Shown here: positions 10,112-46,680 of the stretch, piece after piece
How positions within the stretch are numbered: the stretch's first letter is position 1
Layout: each line of letters opens with the position of its first letter
Assembly (NCBI RefSeq): GCF_002835935.1
Contig: NZ_PJCF01000013.1
Span: 124,001-188,000 of the forward strand
Reading direction: 5' to 3'
From: Paraglaciecola sp. MB-3u-78
GTDB taxonomy: Bacteria > Pseudomonadota > Gammaproteobacteria > Enterobacterales > Alteromonadaceae
DNA: 64,000 bases
Position numbers and translations under genes: made by a program
Notes under the pieces: generated by a model
Seen by the model: the letters and a program-made list of their open reading frames with translations, nothing else
Told to the model about the DNA's origin: nothing
The model's database searches: none

Positions 10112-11106
10112 TTTGCTTCTAATCTGTTGTCTAAAATAGCTAAAGCTATATCGGTTTGCCTGTGCATGTAAGCATTAATTTTATAGTGGCCGGGGCTCCA
10201 GCCTAATAAAAACCGATAAAAGTCGGCCCACGCTAAAGGATATAACATGCGCCACTCTTGCTGTAATGGCATAAAATCCACGTTAATCTGGTAGTGATAA
10301 AGCGCATTTTTAAGATGCAAAAAATACTCATCTAGTAAATGTTGTTCATGTTTGAATAAATCATCTTGATTAAGACTAGCACCTAGAAAATAAGCAAGGT
10401 CTTTTACGCCGACTCCTTTACCCACATACTGGAAATCCACTGCGGCTAATCTGTTAGCGCCATTGTTATCAGAGAAACAGAAATTAGCCAGCTTCGCATC
10501 ACCGTGCACCAGCGTTTGAAAGCGGGCATGGTTCAATGCGGTATCTAAAGTCTGAGCAGCATCTTTGAGTTGACCTGCCTGCATCACCTCAAACTCATCT
10601 TGACGTGTAGCCAGATGCCAATACGTGCCGACAGGCCAAAGGTCACAATTGTCTTGTTGTAAAAACCTAGCATGAAAATAGGCCAACCATTTAATGCCTA
10701 ACTTCACGTCAGCCATTCCAGTTTGGTCTTTACGCAGCGAAAATCCAGCTTGATCTAAATCTTGTAATACTAATATCTGTTGTTGGTTTTCTGAAAACGC
10801 TGCCAACAGTTTAGGTACCACACAATGATCATCACATAAGGATGCGTAATCTCGATAAAAGTTGGCTTCAACTTGATAGGACTGCAATTTACGTTGATGG
10901 CTGGTTTGCGTATTCCAACCTTTTGGATGAGCGTGCTCGATGGGTGGTGAAATATGTTTAACAATAAAAGTAGTGTTAAGTCTTGGGCTTATATATCGTG
11001 AAATATCCCCATAGCCACTCCAAAGAGATTGCACGGTTTGTAATTTATGTAATGAGTTGTCCGCAAAATGCTGTTTAAGCTGGGCTAAAACATCGATAGC
11101 TGGCAT
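10108..11106 (-). CDS. Aminoglycoside/choline-kinase-like phosphotransferase (ecdysteroid-kinase-like)
   Basis: 332 residues with the kinase-like fold of the APH/choline kinase group. The catalytic loop is LVHGDAKLANFCF (Brenner-type HGDxxxxN) and the metal-binding Asp is in AVDFQYVGKGVGVKDLAYF. An N-terminal lysine in TTFIVKHI is the likely ATP-binding Lys. The sequence resembles the DUF1679/EcKL branch, whose bacterial members have unknown substrates. It heads a three-gene operon with two small membrane proteins, so a substrate that is lipid-like or membrane-delivered is possible, but that is conjecture. Confidence 0.75.
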   Translation of the reverse strand: MPAIDVLAQLKQHFADNSLHKLQTVQSLWSGYGDISRYISPRLNTTFIVKHISPPIEHAHPKGWNTQTSHQRKLQSYQVEANFYRDYASLCDDHCVVPKLLAAFSENQQQILVLQDLDQAGFSLRKDQTGMADVKLGIKWLAYFHARFLQQDNCDLWPVGTYWHLATRQDEFEVMQAGQLKDAAQTLDTALNHARFQTLVHGDAKLANFCFSDNNGANRLAAVDFQYVGKGVGVKDLAYFLGASLNQDDLFKHEQHLLDEYFLHLKNALYHYQINVDFMPLQQEWRMLYPLAWADFYRFLLGWSPGHYKINAYMHRQTDIALAILDNRLEAK

Positions 11107-11237
11107 CCGTTGTGTTTGTAAAATTGACTGACTGTCAATAGCTTACCCCAAACAGAAAACACGAAGAAGAGCGAATAGATAAAACAACTATGAACTGTCG
11201 CTTTATCTATTCTAAATATTTATCTATCGCGACATAT

Positions 11238-11552
11238 CTATCTCTCGCGTCGTGGCGGCTTATGACTGGTAAATTCTGCTTCGGTCAAGACACCGTCACC
11301 GTTTGCATCAATATGACCAAAAATAGTGGCATAATCATCGTTTGGCACTTCACTTTTTTCAAACTCGGCGAATGTGACTGTGCCATCTCCATCCAAATCT
11401 AAAGACGAGAATTGTGGGCGTTCGTGTTCTGGCTTATCATTTGATCCGCGATCTTGAGCATGTACAGATAGGCTTAGAGAAATTCCAATCAAACAACAAA
11501 GTGTTAATAACTTTACCGATCCATTCTTTTTTACACTGTTAACAAAATTCAT
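11238..11552 (-). CDS. Secreted EF-hand calcium-binding protein
   Basis: 104 residues from ATG 11552, preceded by AGGTCATATT; the longer frame to 11630 adds 26 residues without a site. A hydrophobic signal segment ends at SVHAQ. Two EF-hand loops follow: DLDGDGTVTFAEF and DANGDGVLTEAEF, each with Asp at 1, 3 and 5 and Glu at 12 or close to it. The protein is probably periplasmic and binds calcium. The C-terminus is very basic (KPPRRER). Confidence 0.8.
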   Translation of the reverse strand: MNFVNSVKKNGSVKLLTLCCLIGISLSLSVHAQDRGSNDKPEHERPQFSSLDLDGDGTVTFAEFEKSEVPNDDYATIFGHIDANGDGVLTEAEFTSHKPPRRER

Positions 11553-40945: not shown

Positions 40946-41137
40946 ATCCGCCGTTCGTCACCTAAAAATTAGGCCGAGAATTGTAATTGAAATGAACGTT
41001 GAATTCATTAGATGATTTGGCATAAATGGAATCAAAAAAAAAGAAATATAATCTAAACAAAATAGCATTCTCGATAAATAAAGAACAATATCAGGTCAAG
41101 ATAAATGGATGATACCTATCTCATTAAATTATAGAGG

Positions 41138-43198
41138 TCAAGAATGCCCCGTTATTTTCAATTCATTAATTGGGCAAGGTTTAGCGATGCCATATCCTTG
41201 CGAATAATCAATGCCTATTTCCTTCAGTTTTAATCCAATCTCAGTGTTTTCAACAAATTCTGCTACTGTCTTTTTACCCATCACACGACCCACTTCGTGA
41301 ATTGATTTTACCATGGCATAATCGATGGGGTCGTCCACTATTCCTTTAACAAACAAACCATCAATCTTTAAAAAATCGACTGGTAAATATTTTAAGTAAG
41401 CGAATGAGGACAATCCAGTGCCAAAGTCATCTAGTGCAAAACTACAACCCTTACTGTGCATTGCTTCGATAAAGGTTGTCGCATCGGAGAGGTTAGAGAT
41501 AGCCGCCGTTTCTGTGATTTCAAAACATATCTTCTTTGCCGGAATTTGGTAATGATCAAGACAATCAATCACAATCTTTAGAAAGCCGGACGCCGTAAGT
41601 GATGGTCCAGATAAATTAATTGAACACAGTTCAAGTGCGGCCAAATGTTCTGGATGTTTGGATAGATAATTAAATTGGTTTTCGATCACCCACTTGTCGA
41701 TTTTTGTCATCAAATGATAACGTTCCGCTGCGGGCAGAAAAATATTGGGCGAAATAAGCGAACCAGATTCATCAACCATACGCAAAAGCACCTCATAGTG
41801 AAGTCCATTTCTATCAGTTGGTTTATTGGGTTGGATAACTTGGGCGTACAAACAAAAGCTATTATTTTCTAGAGCCGAATTAATTTTTGTCACCCACTGC
41901 ATATCTCCATGAACCTTGGCTATGTCGGAAACACTTTCAGTGTAGATACGGAAACAATCACGACCAGCATCTTTTGCAGCGAAACATGCAATATCTGCGT
42001 TACGGAGTAAGTCATTGGTGTTATTAATACTTTCACTAATGGGTGCAATACCGATACTGACACTAATAGCAAAAGGTTTATTTTCCCATAAAAACCTATG
42101 CTGATTAACTTTATCAATCAGTTTTTGAGCAACCTCTTTGGCGTTTTTAATATTACAATTTAGCATCAAAATACCAAATTCATCCCCCCCTAAACGGGCT
42201 AATACGTCATGGCTACGGATATGCGTTTTTAGTATCCGACTTATTTGGCGCAATAATTCATCACCTGCGATATGACCACAAGTGTCATTGATAACCTTGA
42301 ACTGATCTAAATCGAGGTAACAAAATATATGTTCATAATTTTCGGCCTGTCTACTTTGCATTGCTTGAAATAAATGAAGTTCAAAACCTCTTCGATTGAC
42401 TAGGCCGCTCAGTAAGTCATGATTAGCTTGATAGGTAAGTTCTTTTTGGCTGACATGAAGCGCTTGTTCCCTTTGTTCACGCTTTTTTATATCACTATAA
42501 ATAATGTCTAATAATCGGTTGATTGAGTCGCCTAAATCATCAAGTTCATTTTTTTGCTTCTTATTAACTGGGGGAATACGATTCTGTCTGGGATTGTTTA
42601 GATCAAAATCATTGAGCGCTGCGCCTATAGCAATAACTTTTTTTGTTGTGGTTCGATAAAACAAAAAGACAAGGATAAAAGCCAAAAGAATATTTCGCAC
42701 TAATCCAGACAAAATAACCAATATAGAACGATCAATAAATCTGTCTGAGGCTAAAGCTGGGTCAATATAAATTCTCAAATTACCAATGTTCTCACCACTT
42801 TTCAAATATAAAGGTTGGTTAAAACCTTTAATTTCCCCAAAGATTTCAAACCCCTGAGTGAGGTTTGTTCTCCCAGTTTTTTCAGAAGCCAGTTGAGTCA
42901 GCACCTCATCACGTTCATTAGTAATAGTGACTGATGTTATAGAGTAATACTGAAGAATACCTTTAGCTACTTCTTCAGCGGCAGGTGCGTCAAGGTGGAA
43001 AGAAGCATCAGCCGCAGCAAACTGATTAGCTGCCAGAATTTCCGAGGCAAACTGTTCTATCTCATTCTGTTCACGCACAAAATCAACAGCAATCTGAATG
43101 CAACTAAGAGAAAAGCCAACTAATAGTGTCACTAAAACACTATTTTTAGCCAGCGTGTATGACAAACTATCAGTAAAAGGCTGGCTACTTTGTCTCAT
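41138..43198 (-). CDS. Membrane GGDEF-EAL protein, MbaA-like partner of a polyamine-binding protein
   Basis: 686 residues from ATG 43198, whose TG belongs to the TGA stop of the upstream binding-protein gene (ATGA overlap); the ATG at 43252 lies deeper in that gene and is less likely. Two membrane helices flank a periplasmic domain of about 120 residues. The cyclase site GGDEF is intact, with inhibitory site RSHD five residues before it, and the EAL domain keeps YEVLLR (a Val variant of EAL), DDFGTGLSSFAYL and the KIDG segment, so both c-di-GMP synthesis and breakdown are possible. The gene pair matches NspS-MbaA of Vibrio cholerae, where the binding protein reports polyamines to the enzyme. 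With the partner gene split, this protein may be unregulated. Confidence 0.85.
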   Translation of the reverse strand: MRQSSQPFTDSLSYTLAKNSVLVTLLVGFSLSCIQIAVDFVREQNEIEQFASEILAANQFAAADASFHLDAPAAEEVAKGILQYYSITSVTITNERDEVLTQLASEKTGRTNLTQGFEIFGEIKGFNQPLYLKSGENIGNLRIYIDPALASDRFIDRSILVILSGLVRNILLAFILVFLFYRTTTKKVIAIGAALNDFDLNNPRQNRIPPVNKKQKNELDDLGDSINRLLDIIYSDIKKREQREQALHVSQKELTYQANHDLLSGLVNRRGFELHLFQAMQSRQAENYEHIFCYLDLDQFKVINDTCGHIAGDELLRQISRILKTHIRSHDVLARLGGDEFGILMLNCNIKNAKEVAQKLIDKVNQHRFLWENKPFAISVSIGIAPISESINNTNDLLRNADIACFAAKDAGRDCFRIYTESVSDIAKVHGDMQWVTKINSALENNSFCLYAQVIQPNKPTDRNGLHYEVLLRMVDESGSLISPNIFLPAAERYHLMTKIDKWVIENQFNYLSKHPEHLAALELCSINLSGPSLTASGFLKIVIDCLDHYQIPAKKICFEITETAAISNLSDATTFIEAMHSKGCSFALDDFGTGLSSFAYLKYLPVDFLKIDGLFVKGIVDDPIDYAMVKSIHEVGRVMGKKTVAEFVENTEIGLKLKEIGIDYSQGYGIAKPCPINELKITGHS

Positions 43199-43623
43199 TG
43201 GGTGTTTGAACCTTTTGAACTTTCTGAAAAGTGTTTTAATGCTGTATTCCATAAATTGTCGATTCCATTGCGAGTTCGCCGATCAAGCTGGGGCATGAGC
43301 ACGATTAGAGCTTTTGATTCACTCAGAGACGTAGCGTAGAACCCTCGCTTCTGAGCCTCAGTAGCCGTTTCGACTGTCATCATATTAACGGGGTTAGTAC
43401 CTAATGCTTCAACTAGTACACTGTTCTGGAATTCAGTACTGATAGTAAAATTTATCCATTCCTCTGCAATACGTTTCAATTCTGGCTTATCTGCGAGCTC
43501 TTGACTTAATACGTGATTATCAATCCAGCCAGGAACACCTTCTCTAGGGTAAGCCCATTTCCAAATCTCACCGCGCTTTTTTAACTCTGGTAGAGAAAAC
43601 CCCCAGGAAGACGCTAATTTGTT
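43195..43623 (-). pseudogene. 3' part of the polyamine-type binding-protein gene cut by IS66
   Basis: The frame below the left target duplication reads ASSWGFSLPELKKRGEIWKW and continues PREGVPGWIDNHVL, the C-terminal lobe of PotD-like binding proteins, to the stop at 43195 that overlaps the GGDEF-EAL start. It has no start of its own; an ATG at 43641 lies within the IS end and could give a 148-residue fragment without signal peptide. In-frame continuity with the 5' part (45175-45908) is exact once the IS and one duplication are removed. Confidence 0.88.
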
Positions 43624-45174
43624 GTAACTATTCAGCCTCATGAAAATATATTTTGACGATCCCAGCGATCGTATTGACTGATCCCGCTAGGATGTCAGAC
43701 TTGCCTTAATATCACTTTAGTTATTAACCAATGAAGATTGACGGCATTGAAATCGACAGTGTGATCGATTCAACAAAAAAGTTGCTTACAGAGGATAAAT
43801 CAATTTCGCCGGCCTTAAGAGCGGCAATTGAATTGATCATGCTGGTTGTGTCTTTGCTTGCTAATCGATTAGGACTAAATAGCCAAAACAGCAGTAAACC
43901 ACCCTCCACAGATTTTGATAGAAAGAAGAATTCAAGGACTAAATCTGACAATCCGGCCGGCGGCCAGAAAGGGCGGGAGGGTAAAACGCTGAGCCCGTTC
44001 GAAGAGCCCGATGTAGTCAAGGATATTCCCGTAAACAGGGCGCTATTGCCTCCTGGGAAGTATCGTGATGCTGGCGTCCAGTGTCGTCAAGTGGTTGACA
44101 TAGAAATATCACGCATGGTCACCGAATACAGAGCGCAAATACTGCTCAACGAAACAGGCAAGAAATTCACAGCTGAGTTTCCACAAGGTGTTAACAGTGC
44201 TATCCAATATGGCGATGGCATTAAAGCGCACGCGGTTTACCTGTCACAATATCAATTGCTGCCTTATAAACGTATTGAAGAGTATTTTTCCGATCAACTC
44301 AATATTCCGATCAGTGCGGGAACCTTGTTTAACTTCAATCAAAAAGCGTCAGATTTAATTGAGCAAACAGGTGCCGCGGATCGGATCAAAGCCGCACTAC
44401 GAGCATCACCCGTGCTGCATGTTGATGAAACAGGCGTCAACATTAACGGCAAGCGGCGTTGGTTACATTGTGCCTCATCACTTACCTGGACGTATTTCCA
44501 TGCCCACGATAAACGTGGGAAAGAGGCCATGGATGCGGCCGAGATACTGCCATGCTTTACGGGCATTCTGTGCCATGACCACTGGAAACCTTACTACAAA
44601 TATATCCTATGTGAACATTCTCTGTGCAATGCCCATCATTTGAGAGAATTGGAAAGAGCGTGGGAGCAAGACAAGCAGAAATGGGCCAATGAAATGCGTG
44701 CACTGCTGACCAAGCTTTGTCAGGACGTGAAGGATAATGACGGTAAGTTAACGCCAGAGTCTGCCCGCGTCGCCAGAGAACAGTACCGTGAAATACTCTT
44801 TGAGGGTGATAAGGAGTGTCCGCCACCAAATGAGGAGGACCGACCAGCAGGACAACGGGGTCGTTTAAAACGAACCAAAGCGCGCGCCTTGCTTGAACGG
44901 CTCAGAGAATTTGAAAATGATGCGCTTAGATTTATCGAAATAAAAGATGTCCCCTTTACTAACAATCAAGGGGAAAACGATATTCGAATGACAAAAGTAC
45001 ATCAAAAAATATCGGGATGTTTCAGAAGTCAAAACGGTGCGGATATGTTTTGTTTGCTTCGCAGTTACATATCCAGTTGTCGCAAGCAAGATGTTTCAGC
45101 AAGTGAGGCGTTGCGACTATTGTTCAAGGGCAGGCTTCCTGACATCTTTTCATCTGCGCGACCTGAATAGTTAC
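43624..45174 (+). mobile_element. Complete IS66-family insertion sequence, single-ORF type (1551 bp)
   Basis: The ends read GTAACTATTCAG inward from both sides (43624-43635 and the complement at 45163-45174); GTAA is the usual IS66 terminus. A perfect 8-bp duplication AATTTGTT flanks it (43616-43623 and 45175-45182). There is one transposase gene and no tnpA/tnpB accessory genes, as in the ISBst12-like subgroup. Perfect duplication, intact gene and a host gene without further decay indicate a recent event. Confidence 0.93.
43731..45170 (+). CDS. IS66-family transposase (TnpC type)
   Basis: 479 residues. N-terminal coiled or helical region with NSQNSSKPPSTD (about residues 50-61), typical of IS66; a short zinc-binding-like domain; then the DDE core with HVDETGVNINGKRRWLH (first Asp), GILCHDHWKPYY (second Asp) and TNNQGENDIRMTKVHQKISG (Glu). 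The stop falls within the right inverted repeat. The frame has no lesion. Orientation is opposite to the gene it interrupts. Confidence 0.93.
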   Translation: MKIDGIEIDSVIDSTKKLLTEDKSISPALRAAIELIMLVVSLLANRLGLNSQNSSKPPSTDFDRKKNSRTKSDNPAGGQKGREGKTLSPFEEPDVVKDIPVNRALLPPGKYRDAGVQCRQVVDIEISRMVTEYRAQILLNETGKKFTAEFPQGVNSAIQYGDGIKAHAVYLSQYQLLPYKRIEEYFSDQLNIPISAGTLFNFNQKASDLIEQTGAADRIKAALRASPVLHVDETGVNINGKRRWLHCASSLTWTYFHAHDKRGKEAMDAAEILPCFTGILCHDHWKPYYKYILCEHSLCNAHHLRELERAWEQDKQKWANEMRALLTKLCQDVKDNDGKLTPESARVAREQYREILFEGDKECPPPNEEDRPAGQRGRLKRTKARALLERLREFENDALRFIEIKDVPFTNNQGENDIRMTKVHQKISGCFRSQNGADMFCLLRSYISSCRKQDVSASEALRLLFKGRLPDIFSSARPE

Positions 45175-45908
45175 AATTTGTTTTGCATTAAATCATCTGC
45201 AGTATCAACACCTTCCCATAGAGATTTTGCGTTGGCTATCAATGAAGTTAATTTTGCTTGGAATGCTTTATTATTTAACTGATCAAAATCACTTAGGGCC
45301 TTTTTGTCATAACCCATTGCTAAAGCCGTAAGATAAACATTAATCTCACCGTAATCAGCAACACTATATTGCCCCTTATATTTAGGATCCCAAAGTATAT
45401 TCCAGCTTTGAGGTGGCTCATCAAAATACGCTGTGTTATATACCAGTCCATAAGGTCCCCAGGCAAAGGGCAAACCATAATGAACACCATCTTTAACCAA
45501 ATACTTTGAATATTTAAAGGAGGGGTTAAGTTGTTGGTAATTTGGCAAATTATCAAGGTTAAGCGGGAGCAATAGTCCTGAATCAATCATTTTAAAACGT
45601 TTATCGTTGATACGATTATGAGCGGGACTAACAATATCTGCTTTTTTTAATCGTAGTGCAGCAAAGCCATCTTCTGCATCTACTATATAATTTACCTTTA
45701 ATATGACATCAATAGAATACTTTTCAGATATGAGTTTTCTAAATTTTTCACGCTGTGTTACGGGTGCATAACCTTCCCAAACCAGTAAACGGAGTACTTG
45801 CTGTTTTTCTGCAAATACACAAACAGAAACAATATTAATAGATACTCCCATGCAAATGAATGCGAGCTTTTGGGCGATGTATTTTAACATTGTTGATGCA
45901 AACTCCAT
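45175..45908 (-). pseudogene. 5' part of a PotD/NspS-like periplasmic binding-protein gene, cut by IS66
   Basis: The first 244 codons: a signal segment (about residues 9-33, ending VCVFAEK), then VLRLLVWEGYAPVTQREKFR, the start of spermidine/putrescine-type binding proteins, and the ligand-lobe features VHYGLPFAWGPYGLVYN and WNILWDPKYKGQYSVAD. The frame runs into the IS and stops at 45171 after only one codon. Joining base 45175 to 43615 restores one frame of about 384 codons. A second ATG (45890) could be the start. The split protein has lost its C-terminal lobe and cannot bind ligand as usual. Confidence 0.9.
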
Positions 45909-46288
45909 TTATTTAAAACAGACGTTAACGAATATTAAGGATTCGATTAGCATTGAATAAGACAAGAAAAAAAAAGTTACGCATTGGAGTGCTATGACTT
46001 CTAATTTTTTTACTTAACTTTACATAGTTTTTGTCCGCGATTAAATAGTAACAAATGTAAAAAATTCAATCTGAGGTGAAGTTTAAGAAAGAGGCATCTA
46101 GACTCCAACCAATAATGTTAATAAAGCTTGAATTTATATACACAGTGGAATGATTAAGAGTCTCTTCACTTTGTTCTACAACTAAAATCGGCAGTGGTAA
46201 CATCTCAAAAACTTAGTTGGGATTGAAGTAATCAAAGTAACACCTCTAACATGAAGTTTATATATAGCGTTTTCGTAGAATACAAACG
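45909..46288. other. Intergenic stretch upstream of the binding-protein gene
   Basis: 380 bases without a credible gene, AT-rich. It should contain the leftward promoter of the former binding-protein/GGDEF-EAL operon. Nothing else recognised. Confidence 0.35.
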
Positions 46289-46680
46289 TTAATCTTTCCA
46301 ATTCGTAACGTCAACTTTGCGAATGATAAGGAAGCAAAAATAACTCAGTAACAATTTTTGAGGGAATTGACCAGCATAATAAGCCGTGGTTATCACTGTT
46401 AAAAACAACAATGATAGATACGTTGAGAGCGACTTGTTCTTTTTTGACTGCAAGTTTTTTAGCTTTTCACCTGAAAAAGTCCCATCGCTTGCGCAACGTC
46501 TGCCGTCTTTACCTTTAGACATTGAGAAGCTAATAATGTCGTTAATCTGTGGAGTACGTTTTCTATTAAATAATGCCGATTTATGAATAAAAATATCATC
46601 ACCACCAGCATTTGGCTGGATAAAACCAAAGGCCTTATCAACATTGCCCTCTGTTCCTAATAAAAATTTAGCCTAATCAT
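46289..46680 (-). pseudogene. Damaged cold-shock-domain / DUF1294 membrane protein gene
   Basis: The minus-strand frame from 46672 reads KFLLGTEGNVDKAFGFIQPN, then GGDDIFIHKSALFNR, INDIISFSMSKGKDGRRC, which is a cold-shock fold, followed by a Lys-rich linker and a hydrophobic segment (YLSLLFLTVITTAYYAG). There is no start codon between an in-frame TAG (46673-46675) and Met at 46522; an ATG at 46680 is in another frame, so one base seems lost near the start. The DUF1294 part stops after one helix instead of two or three. From 46522 a 77-residue piece could still be made. Confidence 0.65.

Follow-up and report, generated by a model that had tools for sequence, protein, structure and literature searches.

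What remains of a two-gene signalling operon when a transposon breaks its sensory half? The question is raised by positions 41138-45908 of a 64,000-nucleotide stretch of Paraglaciecola sp. MB-3u-78 (contig NZ_PJCF01000013.1, positions 124,001 to 188,000 of the forward strand; the whole stretch is called the window). A gene for a PotD-like periplasmic binding protein, the putative sensor, overlaps a gene for a membrane receptor with GGDEF and EAL domains, a candidate enzyme of cyclic di-GMP (c-di-GMP) turnover, and is split by an insertion sequence (IS) of the IS66 family. An earlier account made from the letters alone (the sequence-only reading) had seen here a polyamine-sensing operon like nspS-mbaA of Vibrio cholerae, knocked out by a fresh insertion. 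We propose, as the probable though far from certain reading, that this is a two-gene sensory operon whose sensor was broken by a recent IS66 insertion, leaving an enzyme that is weakly expressed or without input and likely biased towards c-di-GMP breakdown. The features are as follows.

45171-45908, minus strand: N-terminal piece of the binding protein, a frame of 245 aa recognised by Pfam, its last codon or so within the IS
45175-45182: target-site duplication AATTTGTT, first copy, bordering the IS
43624-45174, plus strand: IS66-family insertion sequence, 1551 bp, one transposase gene, 12-bp inverted ends
43731-45170, plus strand: IS66 transposase (TnpC type), 479 aa
43616-43623: target-site duplication AATTTGTT, second copy, bordering the IS
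43195-43623, minus strand: C-terminal piece of the binding protein, 142 codons, sharing 94% identity with the uninterrupted Colwellia protein
43195-43198, minus strand: ATGA overlap of the binding-protein and enzyme genes
41138-43198, minus strand: two-helix membrane GGDEF-EAL receptor, 686 aa from the ATGA start (Pfam GGDEF 1.1e-40, EAL 4.1e-60)

The insertion itself is clear. The element has an IS66 DDE transposase (Pfam DDE_Tnp_IS66, E=1.1e-47; NCBIfam transpos_IS66, 290 bits against a cut-off of 180), fully complementary ends (GTAACTATTCAG, 43624-43635, and CTGAATAGTTAC, 45163-45174) and a perfect 8-bp duplication, all traits of the IS66 family, and its boundaries are exactly those first read. 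In Colwellia hornerae ACAM 607 the site is empty: 118 of 121 bases are identical without a gap, and the protein reads MQNKLASSWGF across the insertion point, bearing out the single frame that had been reconstructed by removing the IS and one duplication. Three other relatives align across this site with 94/119 (gap-free), 89/122 (4 gap positions) and 87/123 (6 gap positions) identical bases.

The insertion also looks recent, as had been claimed. The genome (6.48 Mb, 87 contigs) holds 15 copies of the element, 14 of which match positions 1-1551 at 100% and one positions 46-1551; perfect 8-bp duplications flank all 15, including one copy (L084, G000:C67) that itself contains, close to the left end, a nested ~1.39-kb insertion with an open frame of 430 residues. 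In 21 other Paraglaciecola genomes no full copy was found, and fragments alone occur in two (224 bases in G020 and 156 bases in G021). One IS66-family element has thus undergone a recent burst in this genome. Classical IS66 elements carry tnpA and tnpB beside tnpC, and a single-gene subgroup is known; the window element, with one long gene in 1551 bp and no tnpA or tnpB, departs from the classical layout, and we provisionally take it to be an ISBst12-like member of the single-transposase subgroup. ISBst12 is listed as an IS66 subgroup in the part of the source available (PMC8024623). The insertion sites do not point to any preference for signalling genes. Five copies, that of the window among them, lie within frames long on both sides (L004, L007, L008, L009, L010) and a sixth (L011) borders long frames, whereas at each of the other nine at least one flank has nothing longer than short open runs, so that the sensor operon was no special target. 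The same genome also has eight copies, with identical scores, of another IS66-type transposase that shares 60% identity with the first.

The interrupted pair is a genuine, accessory operon. The uninterrupted genes, with the same ATGA overlap, are found in C. hornerae (L040), an uncultured Paraglaciecola metagenome-assembled genome (L039), Glaciecola pallidula (L041) and Glaciecola sp. 33A (L042); a stop flagged in the L039 match sits upstream of its start codon. Window and C. hornerae DNA are 96% identical over 41109-43623 and 97% over 45175-45925. The N-terminal piece of the sensor has a strong match in only one of 21 congeners (G020, 76%), with a weak one in another (G011, 33%). The sequence-only reading had held that relatives lacking the pair would speak against it; 20 of the 21 congeners do lack it, yet it stands intact in four relatives, and its absence therefore marks an accessory operon and not a false pair.

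Is the binding protein a sensor, and of what? The N-terminal piece has a signal-peptide-like start (by eye), matches Pfam SBP_bac_6 (E=5.9e-19) and SBP_bac_8 (E=1.8e-15) and is 95% identical to the intact Colwellia protein; Pfam calls nothing in the C-terminal piece. The best NCBIfam matches are YdcS and then PotD, both far under their cut-offs. A model of the intact Colwellia sensor, built from a 71-sequence alignment (predicted local distance difference test, pLDDT, 91.9), matches the PDB structures of YdcS, of VcPotD1 with spermidine, of PotD and of PotF at identities of about 17-20% in the fold search. Residues W45, D92, W232, D236, W250, W276 and D278 (the numbering begins one codon ahead of the first ATG used) are invariant in the 71 homologues, and in a HMMER alignment W45, W250, W276 and D278 fall on W34, W229, W255 and D257 of PotD (PotD numbers by counting), which we take to be pocket residues. 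The acidic PotD positions D168 and E171, presumably ligand contacts, have no clean acidic counterpart in this alignment. With the NspS pocket mapped by spacing (W41, Y233, D236, W261, D263; D70, D90 and F131 left out), S253 of the sensor matches NspS D236; 55 of the 71 homologues have Ser at this position and 16 have Ala. Because the tryptophan and aspartate positions of PotD are kept while those of PotD D168/E171 and NspS D236 appear to differ, an amine is the likely ligand, a polyamine a possible one, and norspermidine doubtful. The polyamine sensing first claimed for the operon is thus not established.

The IS falls near residue 246, leaving W45 on one piece and W250, W276 and D278 on the other, and the C-terminal piece would lack a signal peptide. 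Since the gene is broken between the two halves of the ligand pocket, no working sensor is expected.

The enzyme frame is intact. Its ATGA start at 43198 (686 aa) suits the relatives better than the first ATG at 43252 (704 aa). In the Glaciecola orthologue L112 the hydrophobic helices span about 16-34 and 161-179, and the ~125 residues between the helices form a small alpha/beta domain in the Colwellia receptor model, which is of moderate confidence (pLDDT 79.0; predicted template modelling score, pTM, 0.43). CHASE8 matched weakly (E=0.018) in the Colwellia copy alone among four proteins tried. The catalytic part is nearest in the PDB to the GGDEF-EAL structure of PA0861, which is presumably RbdA (48% identity over 427 columns); the input domain and partner gene differ. 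The motifs RSHD-5-GGDEF (from residue 328), EVLLR, SINLSG, EITET, DDFGTG, LKIDG, AEFVE and SQGYG are all intact, upholding the earlier statement that GGDEF, RxxD and EAL-type motifs survive, and GGDEF is invariant in the 46 relatives kept. Neither gene shows any sign of decay: the window sensor keeps 23 of 23 invariant residues, the enzyme keeps 154 of 155 that are invariant in those relatives, and the ratio of nonsynonymous to synonymous divergence (dN/dS) between window and Colwellia is 0.17-0.23 for both.

We suggest the following mechanism, by analogy with NspS-MbaA, whose mode of action the pair probably shares. The PotD/YdcS-type protein would capture a small, probably cationic amine in the periplasm and, ligand-loaded or not, would dock on the short CHASE8-like periplasmic domain of the GGDEF-EAL enzyme; the ligand state of the periplasm would thereby set the balance of cyclase and phosphodiesterase output. 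The IS66 break would remove this input. When NspS is lost, c-di-GMP falls and MbaA is locked in its phosphodiesterase state, according to the available text of one report (PMC8079147), and for this reason a sensor-less enzyme, if expressed, would most likely be biased towards c-di-GMP breakdown. The 'constitutively set' enzyme of the sequence-only reading thus keeps its lost input and gains a putative direction, breakdown, which stands on analogy. Were this mechanism true, gating of c-di-GMP enzymes by binding proteins would extend past MbaA-type receptors to a short CHASE8-like domain, and the window strain (broken) and C. hornerae (intact, 96% DNA identity) would make a natural experiment on a sensor-less enzyme.

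Several observations weigh against this proposal. Besides the acidic pocket positions already described, (i) no CHASE match is found in the window's own copy of the receptor; (ii) with GGDEF and the inhibitory I-site intact, the default output of the enzyme could possibly be that of a cyclase; (iii) an SBP_bac_8 protein encoded beside a kinase in Pseudomonas aeruginosa bound γ-aminobutyric acid (GABA), not spermidine, and neighbouring binding-protein/receptor pairs do not always interact or have linked functions, as stated in the accessible part of the same study (PMC11113362); (iv) of 21 distant binding-protein loci read, nine have no receptor neighbour; and (v) near a distant relative of the receptor on an Azospirillum plasmid (29% identity, 97% of the query covered), no gene within 4.5 kb is annotated as a binding protein.

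The alternative that survives best concerns only the outcome and is compatible with a broken sensory operon: the insertion would mainly silence the enzyme by polarity, and the strain would amount to a deletion of the whole operon. We regard this as nearly as probable as its opposite. The IS sits between the upstream region of the operon and the enzyme, promoter-like matches are no commoner than in shuffled sequence (14 versus 16.6), and none lies on the enzyme strand between the ATG within the IS (43641) and the enzyme start. An outward promoter in the IS, considered as a candidate, was accordingly set aside. Upstream of that interval the enzyme strand does have single promoter-like matches, one within the IS (44628) and one within the sensor piece (45709). 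Moreover, the ATG at 43641, inside the IS end, opens a 148-aa frame that is in phase with the C-terminal piece and runs into the ATGA overlap, so that coupled translation of the enzyme would be possible given any transcript. The loss of expression first suggested from the position of the promoter upstream of the IS is plausible, no outward promoter standing out.

A true NspS-MbaA system, sensing norspermidine or spermidine, that has lost its sensor is an improbable alternative. The window pair was compared with NspS-MbaA by published traits and not by alignment with the NspS or MbaA sequences. It shares with the systems of V. cholerae and Sinorhizobium meliloti the overlapping genes and a PotD-like sensor directly upstream of a two-helix GGDEF-EAL enzyme, with V. 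cholerae MbaA the EVL phosphodiesterase motif, and apparently, on the mapping by spacing, with NspS the W-x-D pair of the pocket. Published membership requires at least 30% identity over 60% for NspS and MbaA, and MbaA is described, in the portion of the source available, as having SGDEF, no RxxD I-site and a periplasmic part of 233 residues (24-256 in S. meliloti MbaA) (PMC9993111). The window receptor differs in all three traits, having GGDEF, an I-site (RSHD) and a periplasmic part of ~125 residues, and the pocket residue equivalent to NspS D236 is apparently absent (the Ser or Ala position noted above). We do not accept membership on these grounds. Of the NspS-MbaA likeness first proposed, the layout and the overlap hold and no permease gene adjoins, while several MbaA signatures are missing.

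Other known systems are alike in part. YfiN/DgcN has a CHASE8 periplasmic domain and works with the partner YfiR. It resembles the window receptor in its short periplasmic domain and through the weak CHASE8 match of the Colwellia copy, and the NCBIfam DgcN model aligns with residues 81-427 of the 704-aa frame, under its cut-off and mostly over GGDEF; the window receptor differs in having an active-looking EAL domain, a PotD-like partner and no CHASE8 match in its own copy. ScrC of Vibrio parahaemolyticus is a dual c-di-GMP enzyme switched by its periplasmic partner ScrB (PMC10269520, available text), an arrangement that shows another design of such dual enzymes and is likened to ours by description. 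Among the papers listed, none holds CHASE8 together with MbaA or NspS, and titles and abstract openings do not describe the present family.

Least probable of all, by a small step, is that the binding protein served an ATP-binding cassette (ABC) importer encoded elsewhere and the enzyme is an unrelated neighbour: its fold and part of its pocket are those of YdcS, PotD and PotF, and adjacency of a binding-protein gene to a receptor gene does not always imply a link (PMC11113362, available text), but no permease or ATPase gene lies in the window cluster, whose neighbours are Hsp70-like and HHH-domain genes, no ABC permease gene is seen by eye beside the pair in the window or in four intact relatives, the three other SBP_bac_8 matches of the genome (one under the Pfam cut-off) have nearby ABC permease matches of their own, and both the ATGA overlap and the contig linkage given below tie the binding protein to the enzyme. 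The nearest NCBIfam models of two of these others are 2-aminoethylphosphonate (under cut-off) and PRK11622 (above it); the third has no NCBIfam model and adjoins a sugar-type ATPase match under cut-off. An importer subunit with permease genes, which the sequence-only reading had named as the finding to fear, is accordingly not favoured.

The partnership of sensor and receptor can be followed further out. Using the periplasmic part of the enzyme, 70 enzyme clusters were found, and 16 of them have a longest contig of exactly the same size as that of one of the 120 binding-protein clusters listed of 271; after shifts of 1-30 bases such coincidences number 0.4 on average and 3 at most. Equal sizes mean a shared contig, not adjacency, and several of these contigs are under 7 kb. 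The contig-sharing pairs extend to ~47-58% identity. Of the 21 loci of more distant binding proteins that were read, 12 have a two-helix receptor next to the binding protein: five of kinase-type layout, two chemoreceptors (350-400 bp away), four GGDEF receptors and one orthologous GGDEF-EAL receptor, Pfam scans having covered two of the five kinase-type neighbours (both kinases) and one of the four GGDEF proteins. PotD/YdcS-like binding proteins may thus be general input parts. Across the order, PotD/YdcS-like genes adjoin histidine kinases, chemoreceptors or GGDEF receptors at loci L092-L096, L101, L102, L106 and L108-L110. Plasmid records matching the sensor number 97, and of two examined one is an ABC-transporter cluster and one is without GGDEF motifs; 1490 match the enzyme, and the one examined is not an NspS-MbaA locus.

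Distribution and divergence point to exchange between genera. Of 246 genomes sampled from the family, four (the window genome and C. hornerae included) match the Colwellia protein at 71% or more; in an order sample of 394, there are two strong sensor matches, the window genome and one known relative, the next best being 42-43%. Weak sensor matches of 25-27% occur in 10 of 11 genomes of another genus. The synonymous divergence (dS) of the window genes is 0.09-0.12 to C. hornerae and 1.2-1.5 to the congener L039, whereas the Hsp70-like protein encoded next to the operon shows 96% identity to that of the congener (L039/G020) and 34% to its best-scoring match in G104, the genome taken as C. hornerae. 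On this comparison the operon appears to have been recently exchanged between Paraglaciecola and Colwellia, and an absence of transfer would be hard to square with the data; either genus could have been the donor.

Two 965-bp direct repeats of a neighbouring gene, 98% identical, flank the operon in C. hornerae (L040 1076-2040 and 6250-7214); the gene measures 266 aa on the right, and its frame in the left repeat is shorter, at 233 aa. In the congener G001, which matches the window at 89% and 81% on the two sides of the operon, the operon site (L146 ~11061-11281) is empty, and a joint of ~220 bp links the flanks at 41114 and 45923. This joint contains a 34-base stretch identical to sequence just downstream of the C. 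hornerae operon, in one copy in each genome; a repeat element as its source is ruled out, the stretch being absent from 12 other genomes, the window genome included (up to 3 mismatches). The joint suggests either a loss of the operon in G001 or an exchanged piece whose ends do not coincide with those of the genes.

The insertion is otherwise an ordinary IS knock-out, and the interest of the locus lies in the type of receptor and in the recent exchange between genera. We entertain, as a rather doubtful extension, that PotD/YdcS-like proteins and CHASE8-like GGDEF-EAL enzymes form a distinct class of c-di-GMP sensor, a compact module of two genes that moves among the genera of one family, undergoes repeated gain and loss, and is here switched off by a potentially excisable transposon.

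The operon is flanked by an HHH-domain gene upstream and an Hsp70-like gene downstream (NCBIfam PRK11678, slightly under cut-off), and ARAGORN found no tRNA gene within the window. Between the operon and the HHH-domain gene, at 46300-46660, lie the remains of a cold-shock-type gene (by eye), where the metagenome-assembled genome L039 has a different frame of 140 aa.

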